Shown: one piece after another, positions 31,887 through 38,120 of the stretch
How positions within the stretch are numbered: the first letter of the stretch is position 1
Layout: every line of letters starts with the position of its first letter
Assembly (NCBI RefSeq): GCF_002157685.2
Contig: NZ_AP026738.1
Coordinates: 4,960,001-5,024,000 of the forward strand
Source: Comamonas thiooxydans
GTDB taxonomy: Bacteria; Pseudomonadota; Gammaproteobacteria; Burkholderiales; Burkholderiaceae_C
Direction of reading: 5' to 3'
Length of the DNA: 64,000 nucleotides
Made by a program: the position numbers and the translations under genes
Notes under the pieces: model-generated
Told to the model about the DNA's origin: nothing
The model's database searches: none
The model's input: only the letters and a program-made list of their open reading frames with translations

Positions 31887-33254
31887 CTAGGACTGAGGCC
31901 ACAGGAGCCTGACACGCAGACCGCCCAGTTGCGGCGACTCGTCAAGCCACAGCTGGGCACCGCTGCTTTGCGCAATGCTTTGCGCAATGGCCAGCCCCAG
32001 GCCACTGCCGCCAGCCATGCCACCAGCCCCCTGACCGCGAACAAAGCGCTGCAGGACGCGCTGGCGCTCGGCCGGTGCAATGCCTGGACCCGAATCTTCC
32101 ACCACCAGTGCACATCCGTGCTCGTCCTGCAACCAGCCCACATCAACCCGCCCCCCGGTGGGCACGTATTTGATGGCGTTGTCCAGCAGATTGCGCAGCA
32201 GCACCGCCAGTGCCTCGGCGTCTGCGGCCACGCTGAATGCGGACTGCTGCTGCGGGTCTTCACTAAGACCCATGTCCAGCCCCTTGGCCTGGGCAGCCGG
32301 CGCGGCATCAGCCAGGGCCTGCTCGACCAGCACGCGCAAGTCAGCCAGCGGCGCATCTTCAGTCTGCGGCCTGGCTTCCTGCCTGGCCAATGCAAGCAAC
32401 TGCTCCACCAGTCGCCTGGCGCGCTCGATGCCTTGCGCCAGACGGGCCTGCGCTGACTCGCGCTCGGAGCTGTCCGTTGCTTTGCGCAGCAGCTGCAATT
32501 GCAGCTGCAACGCGGCCAGCGGCGAGCGCAGCTCATGCGCAGCATCTGCCACGAAATTCTGCTGTGCCTCAAAAGCCTGCCGTACGCGCTGCAGCAGGCT
32601 GTTGAGCTCCTCTACCAGCGGGCGCATCTCATCCGGCAGATCATGCTCCGCCACGGGTGCCAGATCCTGAGGCTGACGCAGGGCCAACTCCCTGCGCACC
32701 CGCTGCACGGGAGTCAGTGAACGACGAATCACCCACCACACGGCCAGCGCCAGCAGCGGCAACAACAACACCACAGGCAACAAGCTGCGCCAGGCGGCTT
32801 CGCGCGCGAGGATCTGACGCACGCGCATGTCCTGTGCAATCTGAATCACCTGAGAGCGTGTCTGCAGTGAAAACACACGGTAGGTCGTGCCACGCGCAGG
32901 CACATCGGCAAAGCCCAGCACCGCCATCTGGGGCAAGGCATCACCCAGAGCCGACTCGAAGATTCTCAGTCCCTCATTGGTCCAGACCTGGACGATGAAC
33001 TCGTTGTTTTCATCTTCGGGAGGCGTTCCCTGCGGTCTGCCTTTGGCATCGACCGGCAGACCCGCCCGCAGTGCAAACGCCGTCTGCTGCATCTGGTAGT
33101 CGAACAAGGTATCGGTCTGCGCCAGTGCATTGCGATAGGCAAATACCCCTTGCAGCACGGCCACCAGCAAAATCGCCATACCGATGAAAAGCAGCAGACG
33201 CCCGCCCAGCGAGCCGGGCAGCTTCAACCACTGCAATGCCTGGTTTTTGCTCAT
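31887..33254 (-). CDS. Sensor histidine kinase (TctE/QseC type)
   Basis: A 455-residue inner-membrane kinase. Two membrane helices (about 19-38 and 162-180) bracket a periplasmic sensor region. A HAMP-like linker precedes the phosphoacceptor segment ADAAHELRSPLAALQLQ with His near 239, followed by the N box LRNLLDNAIKYVPTGG and the G boxes VEDSGPGI and GSGLGLAIAQSIAQ. It overlaps the response regulator gene by four bases (ATGA), so the two are translationally coupled. Family relatives sense carboxylates or metals; the signal here is not predictable. Confidence 0.93.
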   Translation of the reverse strand: MSKNQALQWLKLPGSLGGRLLLFIGMAILLVAVLQGVFAYRNALAQTDTLFDYQMQQTAFALRAGLPVDAKGRPQGTPPEDENNEFIVQVWTNEGLRIFESALGDALPQMAVLGFADVPARGTTYRVFSLQTRSQVIQIAQDMRVRQILAREAAWRSLLPVVLLLPLLALAVWWVIRRSLTPVQRVRRELALRQPQDLAPVAEHDLPDEMRPLVEELNSLLQRVRQAFEAQQNFVADAAHELRSPLAALQLQLQLLRKATDSSERESAQARLAQGIERARRLVEQLLALARQEARPQTEDAPLADLRVLVEQALADAAPAAQAKGLDMGLSEDPQQQSAFSVAADAEALAVLLRNLLDNAIKYVPTGGRVDVGWLQDEHGCALVVEDSGPGIAPAERQRVLQRFVRGQGAGGMAGGSGLGLAIAQSIAQSSGAQLWLDESPQLGGLRVRLLWPQS

Positions 33255-33910
33255 GGCCTGGGCACCATATAACCAAGGCCGCGCACATTGAGCACTGCGG
33301 CAGCGCCGAGCTTTTTACGCAACCCATGGATATAGACCTCCACCGCATTGCTGCTGACCTCATCGCCCCAGCCATAGAGCTTGTCTTCGATTTGCTGACG
33401 TGACAGCGTGGCCCCCGGCCTTGCCAGCAATGCCTGCAGCACTGCCCATTCACGGCCAGACAACGTGACCGGCTGGCCATTCACGCTGGCCTCGCGAGTA
33501 TTGGGGTTCAGCATGACGCCGCCATGTTCGTACACCGCCTCCAGGTGTCCGGCCGCACGACGCGCAAGCGCACGCATACGCGCCAGCAACTCATCCATGT
33601 CATAGGGCTTGACGACATAGTCATCGGCCCCGGCATCCAGACCGGCGATGCGATCACGTACAGCATCACGTGCAGTGGCAACCAGCACTGGCGTGGCATC
33701 CTTTCGGGCCCGCAACTGACGCAGCACCTGCAGGCCATCCAGCTTTGGCAGCCCAAGATCAAGCAAAACCAGATCGTACTGATGCCCCCGCAAAGCCATA
33801 TCGGCCTGGGCTCCATCCTGAACCCAGTCCACCACATAGCCTTCACGGCGCAGCAGCGCCAGCACGGCCTGGCCGATCATGGTGTCATCTTCAACGAGCA
33901 GTAAACGCAT
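33251..33910 (-). CDS. OmpR/PhoB-family response regulator
   Basis: A 219-residue DNA-binding regulator. The receiver domain carries the acidic pair VEDD, phosphoacceptor Asp51 (LLDLGLPKLDG) and KPYDMDELLARM. The C-terminal winged helix reads LSGREWAVLQALLARPGATL and NAVEVYIHGLRKKLG. QseB/PmrA-like. The Met at 33910 is used because upstream in-frame residues are not receiver-like. Upstream gene of the pair; the kinase follows with a four-base overlap. Confidence 0.94.
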   Translation of the reverse strand: MRLLLVEDDTMIGQAVLALLRREGYVVDWVQDGAQADMALRGHQYDLVLLDLGLPKLDGLQVLRQLRARKDATPVLVATARDAVRDRIAGLDAGADDYVVKPYDMDELLARMRALARRAAGHLEAVYEHGGVMLNPNTREASVNGQPVTLSGREWAVLQALLARPGATLSRQQIEDKLYGWGDEVSSNAVEVYIHGLRKKLGAAAVLNVRGLGYMVPRP

Positions 33911-33954
33911 GGTAGAAGGATAGCGCCGCTGCGGCCGGAACGCCCAGCACCAAA

Positions 33955-33995
33955 AAACAAAGGGCGCACCGCAAAAAGCCGGCACGCCCTAAAAG
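33955..33995 (-). terminator. Terminator after the roadblock-like gene
   Basis: AGGGCG/CGCCCT stem around an 18-nt internal segment. Read on the minus strand it is followed by the T-rich TTTGTTTTTTGG. It is 79 bp past the stop of the minus-strand gene at 34075. Confidence 0.6.
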
Positions 33996-34074
33996 CAAGG
34001 GAAACAAACAAGAGGCAACAGACAAGCGCCGCCGTGCAGCGAAGCTATCGCGCCCTCGGGGAAACTGCCGTCGA

Positions 34075-34479
34075 TTACACCGCAGCCTCAATTCCCGGCA
34101 TCGCCATGCGTGCCTTGGTCAATGCCATGCCCAGGTTGGCAGTACGGCGGCAGACGAAGACGGCGACGTAATCCGGCATCACCTTGCTGCGCAGAAAGAC
34201 GTGAATCAGGTTGTCACTGTTGATGATGATTTCCTGAAAGTAGTGGTGACCATCATCGCTTATACCGCGCGAACGCTTAAACAAGGTCTCGATCATGGAA
34301 ACATTGGGGCCGTTGAACAGGTCGGCCGTAGCCGCCGCCACCAGATCAATCACGTCACGCGGATGGGAGTCCACGGTGCGAATCGAAAGCAACATGCCCG
34401 AAGCAGCATCCACATAACCTGCAGCCAGACATTCAGGCACCGAAGCCACGGCCTGCGTCAACACAGCATCCAAACTCAT
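34075..34479 (-). CDS. Roadblock/LC7-like small protein
   Basis: A 134-residue soluble protein. The pattern of an early Ala-Gly strand (VPECLAAGYVDAASGMLLSI), a central helix (DVIDLVAAATADLF) and a final strand-helix (DYVAVFVCRRTANLGMALTK) resembles the roadblock/LC7 fold, used by MglB-type proteins to regulate GTPases or to dimerise. This is a fold-level guess. It is the gene 87 bp downstream of the ABC-phosphatase fusion, same strand, so the two probably form an operon and may be partners. Confidence 0.6.
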   Translation of the reverse strand: MSLDAVLTQAVASVPECLAAGYVDAASGMLLSIRTVDSHPRDVIDLVAAATADLFNGPNVSMIETLFKRSRGISDDGHHYFQEIIINSDNLIHVFLRSKVMPDYVAVFVCRRTANLGMALTKARMAMPGIEAAV

Positions 34480-34566
34480 TAGGTTCTCACTTTCTTATTG
34501 CTTAGCTTTTGTTTCATGAACCCCTTTCAAGTCGACAGGGAACATGTCATAACGGTCTTGAAAACA

Positions 34567-36126
34567 TCACGCCATCTTTTGCAGCAATGCGTTTTCGAAT
34601 TCATAAAGAAGCGCTTCCTGCGCCCCGGATTGCACATACTGAGCATCAATCAATCGCACACGGCGCAGCGCCTCTTCGGCAGTCAGGCCCTCGCGCACCA
34701 GCCAGGCGGCCAGCACGGTTCCGGTGCGGCCCAATCCGGCAAGGCAGTGCACGGCAAGCACCTCTCCACGGCGTAGGGCGACCGACATACGTGCCAGCAA
34801 CATCTGCATCTGTGCCACTGTCGGTGGCTCGTGGTCATAGACCGGTAGGTGAAAGTTCTTGAGCCCATTGCGGGCCAAGGCTTCCTGCGGGAAGTCCCTC
34901 TCCGTCAGCGTGATCAGCATGGTGACGCCGCAGCGGCTCAAGGCCTTGAGGTCGGCGTCCATGTCGTGCACCACGCCCGGCCAGGGAGTACCGGCCAGCC
35001 GCCCTGGCACCAGCCAGGAAAATCCGCTCGGACCACGGCTGGCTGGCACGGCGTTCTCGGCGGCCAGCAATGGCTGCATTTCCATCAGCACGGCCGCATT
35101 GACGGGGCGAGGCTGGTGGCGGTTTGCAAAGGACAGGCCAGATACCGCGACCGCTGCTGGTTGTGACAGTGCAGGTTCAGGCGCAGAGACCGACGTTGGT
35201 ACAGGCAGCACGGGTTCCAATTTGAAGGGAGCTGCGACCTCACGCACCGCTGCCGAAGATGCTGGCAGGTCGGAAAATTCGGCAATGGCCTCCAAGGCTG
35301 CGGCAGGCAAGGGAGGTGGCGGCAGCACATCGTCGGCAAGCTCATTCACAGGCGTTCCCGGCATGGGGACGGCACAGCTGCCGCTGCGCACAAACTGCTG
35401 ACCGGCAGCGCTGAGCGGATGCTGGATGAACTCCGCCATTACCGCCGCTTCCTGGATACGTCCGCCTGCGAGCAACAACATCTGCTGGGCAGCAGCCTGG
35501 GCATGCTGCTGATGGTGCGTGACCAGCAGCACACTGCACTGCTGGCCGATCTGCTTGATCAAGTCCAGCAGCAAAAATGCCTCATAGCCTTCCAGATCGG
35601 CCGTGGGCTCATCGATCATCAACACCGCAGGCCGGGCCCAGGCCTCGCGCAAAATGGCTACAGCGCGTTGCTGCACCGCGCTCAACAGCATGGTGGACTT
35701 GTCCAGAGCCTGAGCCAGCTCGGCAAAGCCATAGCGCTGCAGCTGTTCAGTCACCCACCGACGCCACTCCAGTGGCGCACGCTGCTCGGTCTGACGTGCT
35801 TTCTCGATCAGAGCATCCAGGGTACTGGCGCGCATAAGCCGGGCATGCTGCTGTACCAGGCGTGGCAAGGCCTGCACGCCGTCGGCGCTCAAAGGCATAC
35901 GCAATGGCTGAGCGGCATAGACCACCTGCCCCCAGCTGCGAAAACGCGGATTGACCGCGTTCAGTCCGGCCAGCGTGCGCAGCAGCGTGGATTTTCCTGT
36001 ACCCGCAGGGCCCAGCAATGCGGTTACGCCTGATTGCGGCAGTGTGAAATCCACTTCGGCCAAAACCACGCGTGGACCATATGAAGCACCCAGGCCTTGC
36101 ACCTGCAGACTGTATTGCTGATCCAA
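34567..36126 (-). CDS. ABC-type ATPase fused to a tyrosine/dual-specificity phosphatase
   Basis: A 519-residue two-domain protein with no membrane segments. Residues 1-225 are an ABC nucleotide-binding domain: Walker A GPAGTGKST (39-47), Walker B VLMIDEP (168-174), H-loop His204. The signature motif is degenerate, LLSAVQQ in place of LSGGQ. Residues 255-340 are a low-complexity Ala/Pro linker. Residues 365-515 are a protein phosphatase: VHCLAGLGRTG gives the CX5R loop (Cys461, Arg467), and Asp431 in VYDHEPP is a likely general acid. The start is a TTG at 36126 with a strong GGGGAGGA ribosome-binding site. No permease gene is nearby. I know no assigned function for this fusion. Confidence 0.88.
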   Translation of the reverse strand: MDQQYSLQVQGLGASYGPRVVLAEVDFTLPQSGVTALLGPAGTGKSTLLRTLAGLNAVNPRFRSWGQVVYAAQPLRMPLSADGVQALPRLVQQHARLMRASTLDALIEKARQTEQRAPLEWRRWVTEQLQRYGFAELAQALDKSTMLLSAVQQRAVAILREAWARPAVLMIDEPTADLEGYEAFLLLDLIKQIGQQCSVLLVTHHQQHAQAAAQQMLLLAGGRIQEAAVMAEFIQHPLSAAGQQFVRSGSCAVPMPGTPVNELADDVLPPPPLPAAALEAIAEFSDLPASSAAVREVAAPFKLEPVLPVPTSVSAPEPALSQPAAVAVSGLSFANRHQPRPVNAAVLMEMQPLLAAENAVPASRGPSGFSWLVPGRLAGTPWPGVVHDMDADLKALSRCGVTMLITLTERDFPQEALARNGLKNFHLPVYDHEPPTVAQMQMLLARMSVALRRGEVLAVHCLAGLGRTGTVLAAWLVREGLTAEEALRRVRLIDAQYVQSGAQEALLYEFENALLQKMA

Positions 36127-36349
36127 GAAATCCTCCCCTCGCAGCGCCTGCTCCGAGGGCCGTCACGATGTATTTGCGGTCACGCCGAATCGCCACCACA
36201 CGGCGTCAAAAAGACGAATGAATGCTTTGGCCCGGCAGTCTATGGCATTACATCTCCAGCAACTCGTTACCTCTGGAAACATGACAACATCATGTGGAAA
36301 TCCCCCGAATATTCATTTATTCAGATATTTTTTGTTTTAAATCAATAAA

Positions 36350-36384
36350 AGCAAAGAAGAAAACCGCACCCATCAGGATGCGGT
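36350..36384 (-). terminator. Terminator after the Do-family protease gene
   Basis: ACCGCA/TGCGGT stem with CCCATCAGGA between; on the minus strand it is followed by TTTTCTTCTTTGC. It lies 24 bp beyond the protease stop and separates it from the fusion gene. Confidence 0.75.
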
Positions 36385-36407
36385 CTTTCATATGGCTGGG
36401 GATCAAC

Positions 36408-37949
36408 TCAACCCAAGCGCACCGGCACAAAGATTTTGTTGCCATCGCGCCAGATCAGCACGGCCACGGTCTTGTCCGCTTTGGCGACTGCGGCCCGCAC
36501 CTCATCGATATTTCCGGCAGGTGCGCCATTGATGGACAGCAGCACGTCACCCTGGCTGATACCTGCTGCTGCTGCCGGACCGCTGGCCTGAGCTACCAGC
36601 AGACCGGAGTCCACGCCAATCTGCTTTTTTTCCTCAGGCTGCAGGGGGCGCAAAGCCAGCCCCAGCTTTCCCTTGTCAGCGTCCGGAGAGGACTTGGCCA
36701 CCTTCGCAGTCTTGTCACTGGCATCGCCAAGGGTCGCACTCAGAGTCTTGGATTCACCTTTGCGCCAGACTTCCAGCGTCACTTTCTGCCCCGGCAAGGC
36801 CTGGCCGATAAAGGCCGGCAGATCGCCCGAACCAACAATGGGTTTGCCATCCACCTTGCGCACCACATCGCCTGGTTCCAGTCCGGCCTTGGCAGCAGGG
36901 CCATTCTTTTCGACACTGGCCACCAATGCACCTTCGGGCCTATCCAGCTTGAAGGAATCGGCAAAGGCCTGATTGACCTCCTGCACACTCACGCCCAGCT
37001 TGGCATGCTGGGCCTTGCCCGTTGCCTGAATCTGCTGTTGCACACGGGTTGCCAGTTCGATGGGAATCGCAAACGACACCCCTTGATACCCGCCCGAGCG
37101 GGTATAGATCTGGCTGTTGATCCCCACGACCTCTCCCTGTGCGTTGAACAGCGGGCCACCAGAGTTGCCGGGGTTGATCGCCACATCCGTCTGCAGGAAG
37201 GGAACAAAGGAATCATCGGGAAGAGAACGCCCCTTGGCACTCACCACGCCAGCCGTCACGCTGTTCTCAAAGCCGAAGGGCGAGCCGATCGCCAGCACCC
37301 AGTCGCCCACACGCAGCTGGCTGGTCTGGCCCAGCTTGACCGTGGGCAACCCGGCAGCGTCAATCTTGAGTACCGCCACATCGGTCTTGGGATCGGCTCC
37401 CAGCACCTTGGCCCTGAACTCGCGGCGGTCGTTGAGCTTGACCGTCACTTCCTTGGCGCCATGCACCACATGGGCATTGGTCAGAATCACGCCGTCGCTG
37501 GAGACGATAAAGCCCGAGCCCTGGCCGCGCATGGGTGTATCGGGCTGCTGCGCACGTGGCCCCATGCCCTGCCCGCCAGGCATGCCCGGAATGCCGAACT
37601 GGCGGAAGAATTCAAAGAAGGGATCGTCAGGGCTGATGCCCGGGCCCTGTTGCTGATGTTCGCTGGCCTGGTCGCCTTCATCGTCGCTCATGGCACGAGA
37701 GGAACCCACCACGCTGATATTGACCACGGCCGCGCCGTTACGCGCCGTGATATCCGCAAAATTGGGAGCATTTACCGCAGGCAGGTTAAGGGCTGCGGGC
37801 TGCGCAGCCACTGTAGATTGCGTCACCTGCGCCTGGGCAGCGCTGCGAGTTCCCACCAGGCCGGCGCCGGTTGCGCCCAGTGCGCCAATCGCACCTGCAG
37901 CCACCAGAGCCATTACCAGTCGGCGGGGTGTGGACAGAATTGTGTTCAT
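36408..37949 (-). CDS. Do-family periplasmic serine protease (DegP/MucD-like)
   Basis: A 513-residue exported protease-chaperone. Signal peptide at the N-terminus, then a trypsin-like domain with the catalytic triad visible: His in ILTNAHVVHGA (about 159), Asp in ADPKTDVAVLKID (about 190), Ser in INPGNSGGPLFNA (about 262). Two PDZ domains follow (GALVASVEKNGPAAKAGLEP and LVAQASGPAAAAGISQGDV). A long Q-rich loop near 100 resembles the LA loop. It degrades misfolded envelope proteins. The ATG at 37949 is preferred since AAAGGA stands at the right distance; the ATG at 37955 is too close to it. Confidence 0.93.
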   Translation of the reverse strand: MNTILSTPRRLVMALVAAGAIGALGATGAGLVGTRSAAQAQVTQSTVAAQPAALNLPAVNAPNFADITARNGAAVVNISVVGSSRAMSDDEGDQASEHQQQGPGISPDDPFFEFFRQFGIPGMPGGQGMGPRAQQPDTPMRGQGSGFIVSSDGVILTNAHVVHGAKEVTVKLNDRREFRAKVLGADPKTDVAVLKIDAAGLPTVKLGQTSQLRVGDWVLAIGSPFGFENSVTAGVVSAKGRSLPDDSFVPFLQTDVAINPGNSGGPLFNAQGEVVGINSQIYTRSGGYQGVSFAIPIELATRVQQQIQATGKAQHAKLGVSVQEVNQAFADSFKLDRPEGALVASVEKNGPAAKAGLEPGDVVRKVDGKPIVGSGDLPAFIGQALPGQKVTLEVWRKGESKTLSATLGDASDKTAKVAKSSPDADKGKLGLALRPLQPEEKKQIGVDSGLLVAQASGPAAAAGISQGDVLLSINGAPAGNIDEVRAAVAKADKTVAVLIWRDGNKIFVPVRLG

Positions 37950-38120
37950 GGTCATCCTTTCAAAAAAGCACCGGATCGGTGTCGTTGAAAGGAAGTTTGA
38001 ACGTCCACACTTAGGCGAGACTTAGGCGTTTGCGGTATTCACCAATGCACCTGGACCAGAAGCTGCTTGCCTCTGCAGCTCAATGAGTTCAGGCCATTTT
38101 CAATCTGAAACCCACCTCGC

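Follow-up and report, generated by a model that had tools for sequence, protein, structure and literature searches.

An ABC-type ATPase fused to an atypical dual-specificity phosphatase and its cryptic roadblock/LC7-fold partner in Comamonas thiooxydans: a candidate two-gene signaling switch

Organization of the F1-F0 locus

The window analyzed here is a stretch of 64,000 nucleotides from Comamonas thiooxydans (contig NZ_AP026738.1, positions 4,960,001 to 5,024,000). On its minus strand lies a gene, F1, whose predicted product is a soluble ATP-binding cassette (ABC) ATPase domain joined to an atypical dual-specificity phosphatase (DSP). The next gene downstream, F0, encodes a small protein with a predicted roadblock/LC7 fold. 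A preliminary description of F1, made from its sequence, had recognized the fusion, with no strand stated, and its degenerate ABC signature, both of which are upheld below; the identity of the neighbor as a cryptic roadblock/LC7 protein had been missed. Because of this neighbor, we interpret F1 as part of a two-gene switch akin to GTPase/roadblock systems instead of a solitary, unusual fusion enzyme. The genes and domains are as follows.

34567..36126, minus strand: F1, fusion gene for an ABC-type ATPase, a linker and an atypical DSP (519 residues, TTG start)
35377..36126, minus strand: ABC nucleotide-binding domain (F1 residues 1–250)
35032..35376, minus strand: Pro/Ala-rich variable linker (F1 residues 251–365; disordered core 290–349)
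34570..35031, minus strand: DSP phosphatase domain (F1 residues 366–519)
36131..36138 (plus-strand numbering), minus strand: Shine-Dalgarno-like GGGGAGGA, 4 nt 5′ of the F1 TTG
34075..34479, minus strand: F0, cryptic roadblock/LC7-fold protein and conserved partner of F1 (134 residues)

Domain structure of F1

The F1 reading frame is free of internal stops, and Pfam profiles matched ABC_tran (3.7e-17), PTP-SAK (9.8e-21) and DSPc (6.6e-11), as well as Tc-R-P. In the AlphaFold2 model the ATPase and phosphatase halves are both confidently folded, with the phosphatase fold present as the preliminary description expected. The linker is disordered, with predicted local distance difference test (pLDDT) values below 50 at residues 290–349, and its length differs among aligned homologues. 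Structural matches of the model are PstB for the ATPase half and DUSP23 for the phosphatase half; the ATPase accounts for most of the rows, the phosphatase for two (2img and 4erc) among the matches listed. PstB is also the best NCBIfam match, with 112.8 bits against a cut-off of 343 and 77.5 bits for the next family. Both domains are present in the 120 database homologues listed (the best 120 of 1,670 at E ≤ 1e-3). Those named among the matches listed are Comamonas or Delftia proteins, and the labels include “ATP-binding cassette domain-containing protein”, “atypical dual specificity phosphatase” and “phosphatase domain-containing putative toxin”.

The TTG start has a strong ribosome-binding site, GGGGAGGA, and an aligned TTG is found in 12 of the 14 closest orthologues (L002–L015, starts assigned by script). 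The deliberate low-level translation that had been read from it does not follow, given the strength of the site and the ATG or GTG starts of several relatives.

To survey relatives, the genome contigs of 84,980 species were searched with F0 alone; the top-scoring 80 of the 174 stretches confirmed in this way, representing 79 loci, form the set described below. Judged by motif, 70 of these 79 loci have F1 as a single uninterrupted frame, which rules out a frameshift or assembly artefact joining two separate genes. An ordinary ABC transporter subunit is likewise rejected: the signature and D-loop are degenerate and no permease gene is seen adjoining. As had been noted, none of the five neighboring open reading frames (ORFs) scanned with Pfam encodes an ABC permease; the rest of the genome was not searched for one.

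Conservation of the F1 active sites

Motifs were counted in 84 distinct F1 proteins, left from 89 after removal of identical ones and selected on no other basis than score and length. Two of them have gaps at Walker A, namely L091 (split frame) and L124 (trimmed, its own frame passing the motif test), and eight further ORFs above 90 bits that are split, cut or under the score limit, including L241, stand outside the count. The motif positions given in the preliminary description, including Cys461 and Arg467 of the phosphatase loop, are all correct.

35986..36012, minus strand: Walker A (GPAGTGKST), residues 39–47; Gly39, Pro40, Gly44, Lys45 and Ser46 in 82/84, with 2 gaps
35665..35685, minus strand: degenerate ABC signature LSAVQQR (region LLSAVQQR), residues 148–154
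35605..35625, minus strand: Walker B, residues 168–174; Asp172, Glu173 and Pro174 in 84/84
35515..35517, minus strand: H-loop His204, in 83/84
34834..34836, minus strand: candidate general acid Asp431, in 83/84
34723..34749, minus strand: phosphatase loop HCLAGLGRT, residues 460–468; His460, Cys461, Gly464, Gly466, Arg467 and Thr468 in 84/84

In ABC ATPases, Walker A and B, the Q-loop and the H-loop serve the ATP of their own subunit, while the signature and D-loop are offered to the partner subunit. The first group is nearly invariant in F1, including the Q-loop Gln93 (82/84, with one gap and one Leu). In the second group, the Gly-Gly pair of the signature is found in none of the 84 proteins and a single Gly in 10, and only 15 proteins retain Asp179 of the D-loop. 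The control ABC ORFs, which were found by pattern in five of eight loci (L023–L030), all have LSGG[QE] and SALD or ASLD. From these counts and controls, the within-subunit ATP elements of F1 are kept and the cross-dimer elements are degenerate, and the degenerate signature is, as judged from the aligned sequences, a family-wide trait and not local decay. The retention of Glu173, Gln93 and His204 points to a need for ATP turnover, and the lost signature and D-loop speak against a closed dimer of the usual ABC kind, so that F1 probably does not work in this canonical way.

The phosphatase half contains the CX5R loop, a candidate Asp acid and the DSP fold, and activity is predicted; Asp431, already proposed as a possible general acid, is still a candidate. 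Ratios of nonsynonymous to synonymous substitution rates (dN/dS) against six orthologues are 0.09–0.21 for the ATPase half and 0.025–0.15 for the phosphatase half, and 0.14–0.30 for the linker (five orthologues where computable). One F1 relative (L079:6858-8030, genome G126) has a Tyr at the Asp431 position and lacks part of the linker region; there is no F0 beside it in the fetched 15 kb.

F0 is a cryptic roadblock/LC7-fold protein

Roadblock proteins are partners of small GTPases in settings that range from bacterial polarity to eukaryotic nutrient signaling. The F0 model has the topology α-β-β-α-β-β-β-α, which is that of the roadblock/LC7 fold of MglB and Ragulator, and structural comparison matches it to LAMTOR proteins and Rag GTPase chains. 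No Pfam family is found for F0 even at E ≤ 10, its profile gives only chance matches to PDB sequences, NCBIfam, PHROGs and PADLOC give no match to it, and it was not found in phage records. A sequence link to Robl_LC7 proteins exists only via intermediate roadblock proteins. We therefore place F0, on the strength of its predicted fold, in the roadblock/LC7 superfamily, outside the Pfam family. By analogy, it is probably a dimer.

F0 is the more conserved member of the pair, with a mean column identity of 78% (30 rows) versus 47% for F1 (27 rows). Its mean identity across 71 loci is 69%, and its dN/dS of 0.02–0.10 indicates strong purifying selection. Tandem F0 copies occur in L157, L162, L222, L223, L235, L236 and L238, and the copies in L101 flank F1; such arrangements would suit heterodimers. 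A separate roadblock-like family of ~119 residues is also unseen by Pfam (L143:70-348, 92 residues as called; L242:2494-2853; L171:8768-9124), the L171 copy adjoining a GTPase gene and a Robl_LC7 gene.

Linkage and distribution of F1 and F0

F1 or a part of it lies beside F0, always on the same strand, in 76 of the 79 loci, in the order F1-F0 in 61 and F0-F1 in 15. Among the nine loci without an intact one-frame F1, four (L113, L115, L132 and L158) have an F1 truncated at the end of the contig, two (L096 and L156) have nearly no sequence upstream of F0, two (L091 and L162) have F1 split over two frames, and one (L159) has no F1. The expected conservation with the neighbor across Comamonadaceae holds and reaches beyond that family: the loci span beta- and gammaproteobacteria, including Comamonas, Delftia, Acidovorax, Hydrogenophaga, Methylotenera, Gallionella, Thiobacillus, Derxia, Stenotrophomonas, Frateuria, Alcanivorax and Wenzhouxiangella. 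Within the bacterial family of C. thiooxydans, F0 is patchy: of 150 genomes sampled, 14 have it, and all of these except G181 (13 genomes) also have an F1-type phosphatase match at a threshold of 1e-10.

In the window, the pair is flanked on one side by the gene of an HtrA-like protease and on the other by genes for a response regulator and a histidine kinase, all on the same strand (31887-37955). These flanks recur in Comamonas relatives, and none were seen by eye in the outside-lineage gene maps inspected. One lone F0 (L076:7399-7800, genome G078) sits amid phage genes identified with PHROGs (terminase large subunit, portal and primase/helicase); the same genome carries a second F0 that is linked to F1 (L075).

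GTPase, roadblock and redox neighbors

Neighbors in the 79 loci were counted by BLAST to representatives. A Ras-like GTPase gene is present in 19 loci, preceded by a gene of unknown fold (gene A, 216–387 residues in scanned examples). It lies directly upstream of F1 in 18 of the 19; in L156, gene A and the GTPase gene lie downstream of F0, on a contig that breaks off where F1 would be expected. The GTPase is also found in two of 20 hand-picked family loci (L078 and L082). Other neighbors are a roadblock gene (13 loci), a Fer2-type protein (24, on either strand) and a CxxCxxCC protein (10). All three Fer2-type proteins scanned have Fer2 and bacterial-globin domains, and that of L141 adds FAD- and NAD-binding domains. 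Such 2Fe-2S/globin proteins adjoin F0-F1 pairs at L141:6994-8604, L127:6430-7632 and L078:8890-9996, and an oxygen or nitric oxide (NO) input through them is possible.

The C. thiooxydans genome, a single contig of 5.9 Mb, encodes a GTPase, a Robl_LC7 protein and a third roadblock-like protein at 433.7–435.1 kb. Across the 150 family genomes, a GTPase of this type (E 1e-15) is found in 8 of 14 F0-positive versus 8 of 136 F0-negative genomes (Fisher 5e-6).

Divergent F0 relatives

Divergent F0 proteins (E ~1e-13 to 1e-21) occur in other Gammaproteobacteria and in a further class of the same phylum, with any F0 present in 23/369 and 35/398 genomes, respectively. Twenty such stretches were fetched (L222–L241). 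One, L241, has a divergent F1; among the other 19, a GTPase gene is found in 12 and a metallophosphatase gene in 13. A relative with 38–40% identity to F0 occurs in five Ruegeria plasmids; in the two megaplasmids inspected (L243:2901-14209 and L244), it lies amid four dynamin-family genes, two unknown genes and a protein kinase gene. Since the neighbors thus include the ABC-phosphatase F1, GTPases and dynamins, F0-type proteins are companions of P-loop nucleoside triphosphatases (NTPases) and, repeatedly, of phosphatases or kinases.

The metallophosphatase gene beside divergent F0s (e.g. L226:6116-7630 and L234:6036-7613) is conserved and encodes an N-terminal half in which Lys54, Asp145-x4-Asn150 and Asp163 are invariant and, as judged by eye, kinase-like (7 aligned of 13). 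A profile search of the PDB matched only its phosphatase half. The residue pattern suggests that a kinase and a phosphatase are possibly joined in this chain.

A possible mechanism and its alternatives

In bacterial polarity systems, the GTPase MglA is under the control of MglB, which docks on it. As the fixed partner F0 shares its fold with MglA-controlling proteins, we read it as setting the state of the ABC domain. F1 and F0 would then constitute a two-gene cytosolic signaling switch, in which F1 binds ATP in its ABC-type domain with intact cis machinery and F0, a probable dimer, docks on this domain as MglB does on MglA. The docked F0 would set the nucleotide state, and the flexible linker would relay it to the cysteine phosphatase at the C-terminus, which would then dephosphorylate a protein at tyrosine or Ser/Thr residues. 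Some lineages may connect the pair to a Ras-like GTPase, to a second roadblock protein and to a 2Fe-2S/globin protein, and in these lineages the switch may respond to oxygen, NO or redox state. We assign a probability of about one half to this interpretation, namely an ATP-dependent switch set by F0 and controlling a phosphatase in a GTPase/roadblock-type pathway.

Several points weigh against it. The F0-F1 contact, the ATPase and phosphatase activities and the substrate are all inferred. The assignment of F0 is challenged by the Pfam Robl_LC7 profile, which does not match it, by weak hhalign probabilities against roadblock proteins (1.4% and 3.3%), and by an F0 profile search of its own genome that recovered F0 itself and missed the other roadblock genes. 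The linkage figure describes closer relatives only, the 79 loci being the best-scoring among 174 candidates, and the correlation between F0 and F1 distances (r 0.84, 71 loci) and the co-occurrence of F0 with the GTPase are both uncorrected for phylogeny. F0 occurs without F1 in L159 (of the 79) and in L074, L076 and L081 (of the 20 hand-picked loci), and F1 without F0 in L079, where Asp431 is also absent; therefore, neither strictly needs the other. No GTPase gene adjoins the pair in the window, nor in 60 of the 79 loci, some on short contigs, and the sole GTPase of this type found in the C. thiooxydans genome is ~4.5 Mb away by contig position and 28% identical.

The main rival, which we regard as unlikely, is that F0 partners a GTPase encoded elsewhere, in the manner of MglB or MglC, and that F1 is the effector, its ABC domain only scaffolding or recruiting the phosphatase around a structural ATP. 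The GTPase and roadblock genes flanking the pair in 19 and 13 of the 79 loci, the GTPase/roadblock set kept in trans by the C. thiooxydans genome and the over-representation of the GTPase among F0-positive genomes would all agree with this, and a degenerate signature and D-loop would suit a non-cycling ATPase. However, the 60 loci in which no GTPase adjoins the pair and the 6 of 14 F0-positive family genomes that lack one at E 1e-15 do not fit, and the near-strict Glu173, Gln93 and His204 are unexpected in a mere scaffold. Descent from PstB offers a different account, in which F1 is a phosphate- or nucleotide-sensing module whose phosphatase acts on the two-component or another regulator next door. 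PstB is indeed the best NCBIfam family by a clear difference in bits and the top structural match, tied with others, and the Comamonas pair does lie between the HtrA-like gene and the response regulator/kinase pair; but the score is far under the PstB cut-off, and such neighbors were not seen outside the lineage in the maps inspected, so that we consider this improbable.

A defense or toxin module, with F0 as regulator or antitoxin, seems equally remote. The patchy occurrence of F0 and its variable gene neighborhood, the lone F0 amid phage genes and the public “putative toxin” label point in this direction, as do PADLOC matches of the F1 ATPase half (mad3 3.7e-12, mad8 3.9e-9 and AriA 9e-5). 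These matches are, however, confined to the ABC half, which is common to many unrelated ATPases, and PADLOC has no match for F0 or the GTPase. The strong purifying selection on F0 and its sequence identity across loci, together with companions that include GTPase, roadblock and redox genes, also argue against such a role. No polymorphic-toxin delivery module was found N-terminal to the F1 phosphatase, the N-terminal half being the ABC ATPase domain.

Returning to the ATP-dependent switch, a more specific version can be proposed only tentatively: F0 may provide in trans what the lost signature and D-loop would give in a normal ABC dimer. The roadblock dimer would complete or block the ABC ATP site, governing its ATP hydrolysis as MglB governs GTP hydrolysis by MglA, and the fused phosphatase would report the state. 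F0-type proteins might then be general cryptic roadblock adaptors for mutually unrelated P-loop NTPases (ABC, Ras-like and dynamin) that drive bacterial kinase/phosphatase signaling.

Comparison with known systems and significance

The Rag/Ragulator system is an NTPase-roadblock complex that controls phospho-signaling. F0 resembles it in the match of its fold to LAMTOR and Rag GTPase chains, whereas F1 is of another NTPase class and has a phosphatase, rather than a kinase, as output within the same chain. In MglA/MglB of Myxococcus and Thermus, and in MglC, the NTPase is a small GTPase, while the NTPase adjoining F0 combines an ABC-type ATPase with a phosphatase in one chain; F0 also differs in being unmatched by Robl_LC7. 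PhnK of C-P lyase is a permease-free ABC ATPase. Like PhnK, PstB and other ABC ATPases, F1 has the ABC fold, Walker A and B, and the Q- and H-loops; unlike them, it combines the absence of an intact signature and D-loop and of an adjoining permease with a fused phosphatase. That phosphatase, in contrast to the atypical DSPs DUSP23/VHZ and PTP-SAK, is the C-terminal partner of an ABC ATPase, to which a long disordered linker joins it.

The actinobacterial conservons, or mfp operon, are reported to be small clusters with a roadblock protein and a Ras-like GTPase (PMC4316618). To that extent they resemble the F0 clusters, which are small and have a roadblock protein and, in 19 of the 79 loci, a Ras-like GTPase; a GTPase in the same cluster, as in Mgl- and conservon-type systems, is seen in those 19 relatives and not in the window. 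In place of the conservon histidine kinase, the F0 clusters have the ABC-phosphatase and the Fer2/globin protein; no such kinase was recognized in them, though it was not searched for by name. Methylacidiphilum HGbRL is reported to be a globin fused to Roadblock/LC7 (PMC4476040). It thus similarly ties a globin module to a roadblock module, in one chain, whereas in relatives of F0 in other genomes, and not in the window, a separate Fer2/globin gene lies by roadblock genes.

Consistent with the preliminary description, which knew of no system with the F1 architecture, neither an ABC ATPase-DSP fusion nor the F1-F0 pair is described in the literature searched, which mostly excluded subscription journals. 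The parts of F1 and F0 belong to known superfamilies; the combination of an ABC ATPase-DSP fusion with a roadblock partner is new to that literature. The ABC site, with its cis elements intact and trans elements absent, gives a clear prediction, and, if the roadblock-ABC contact that we now infer were shown, “categorically new” would be a defensible description. Confirmation of the switch would make many hypothetical proteins (890 matches from one query) testable, would provide an example of an ABC domain that serves to switch a phosphatase in its own chain rather than to move a solute, and would extend roadblock control to a different class of NTPase.
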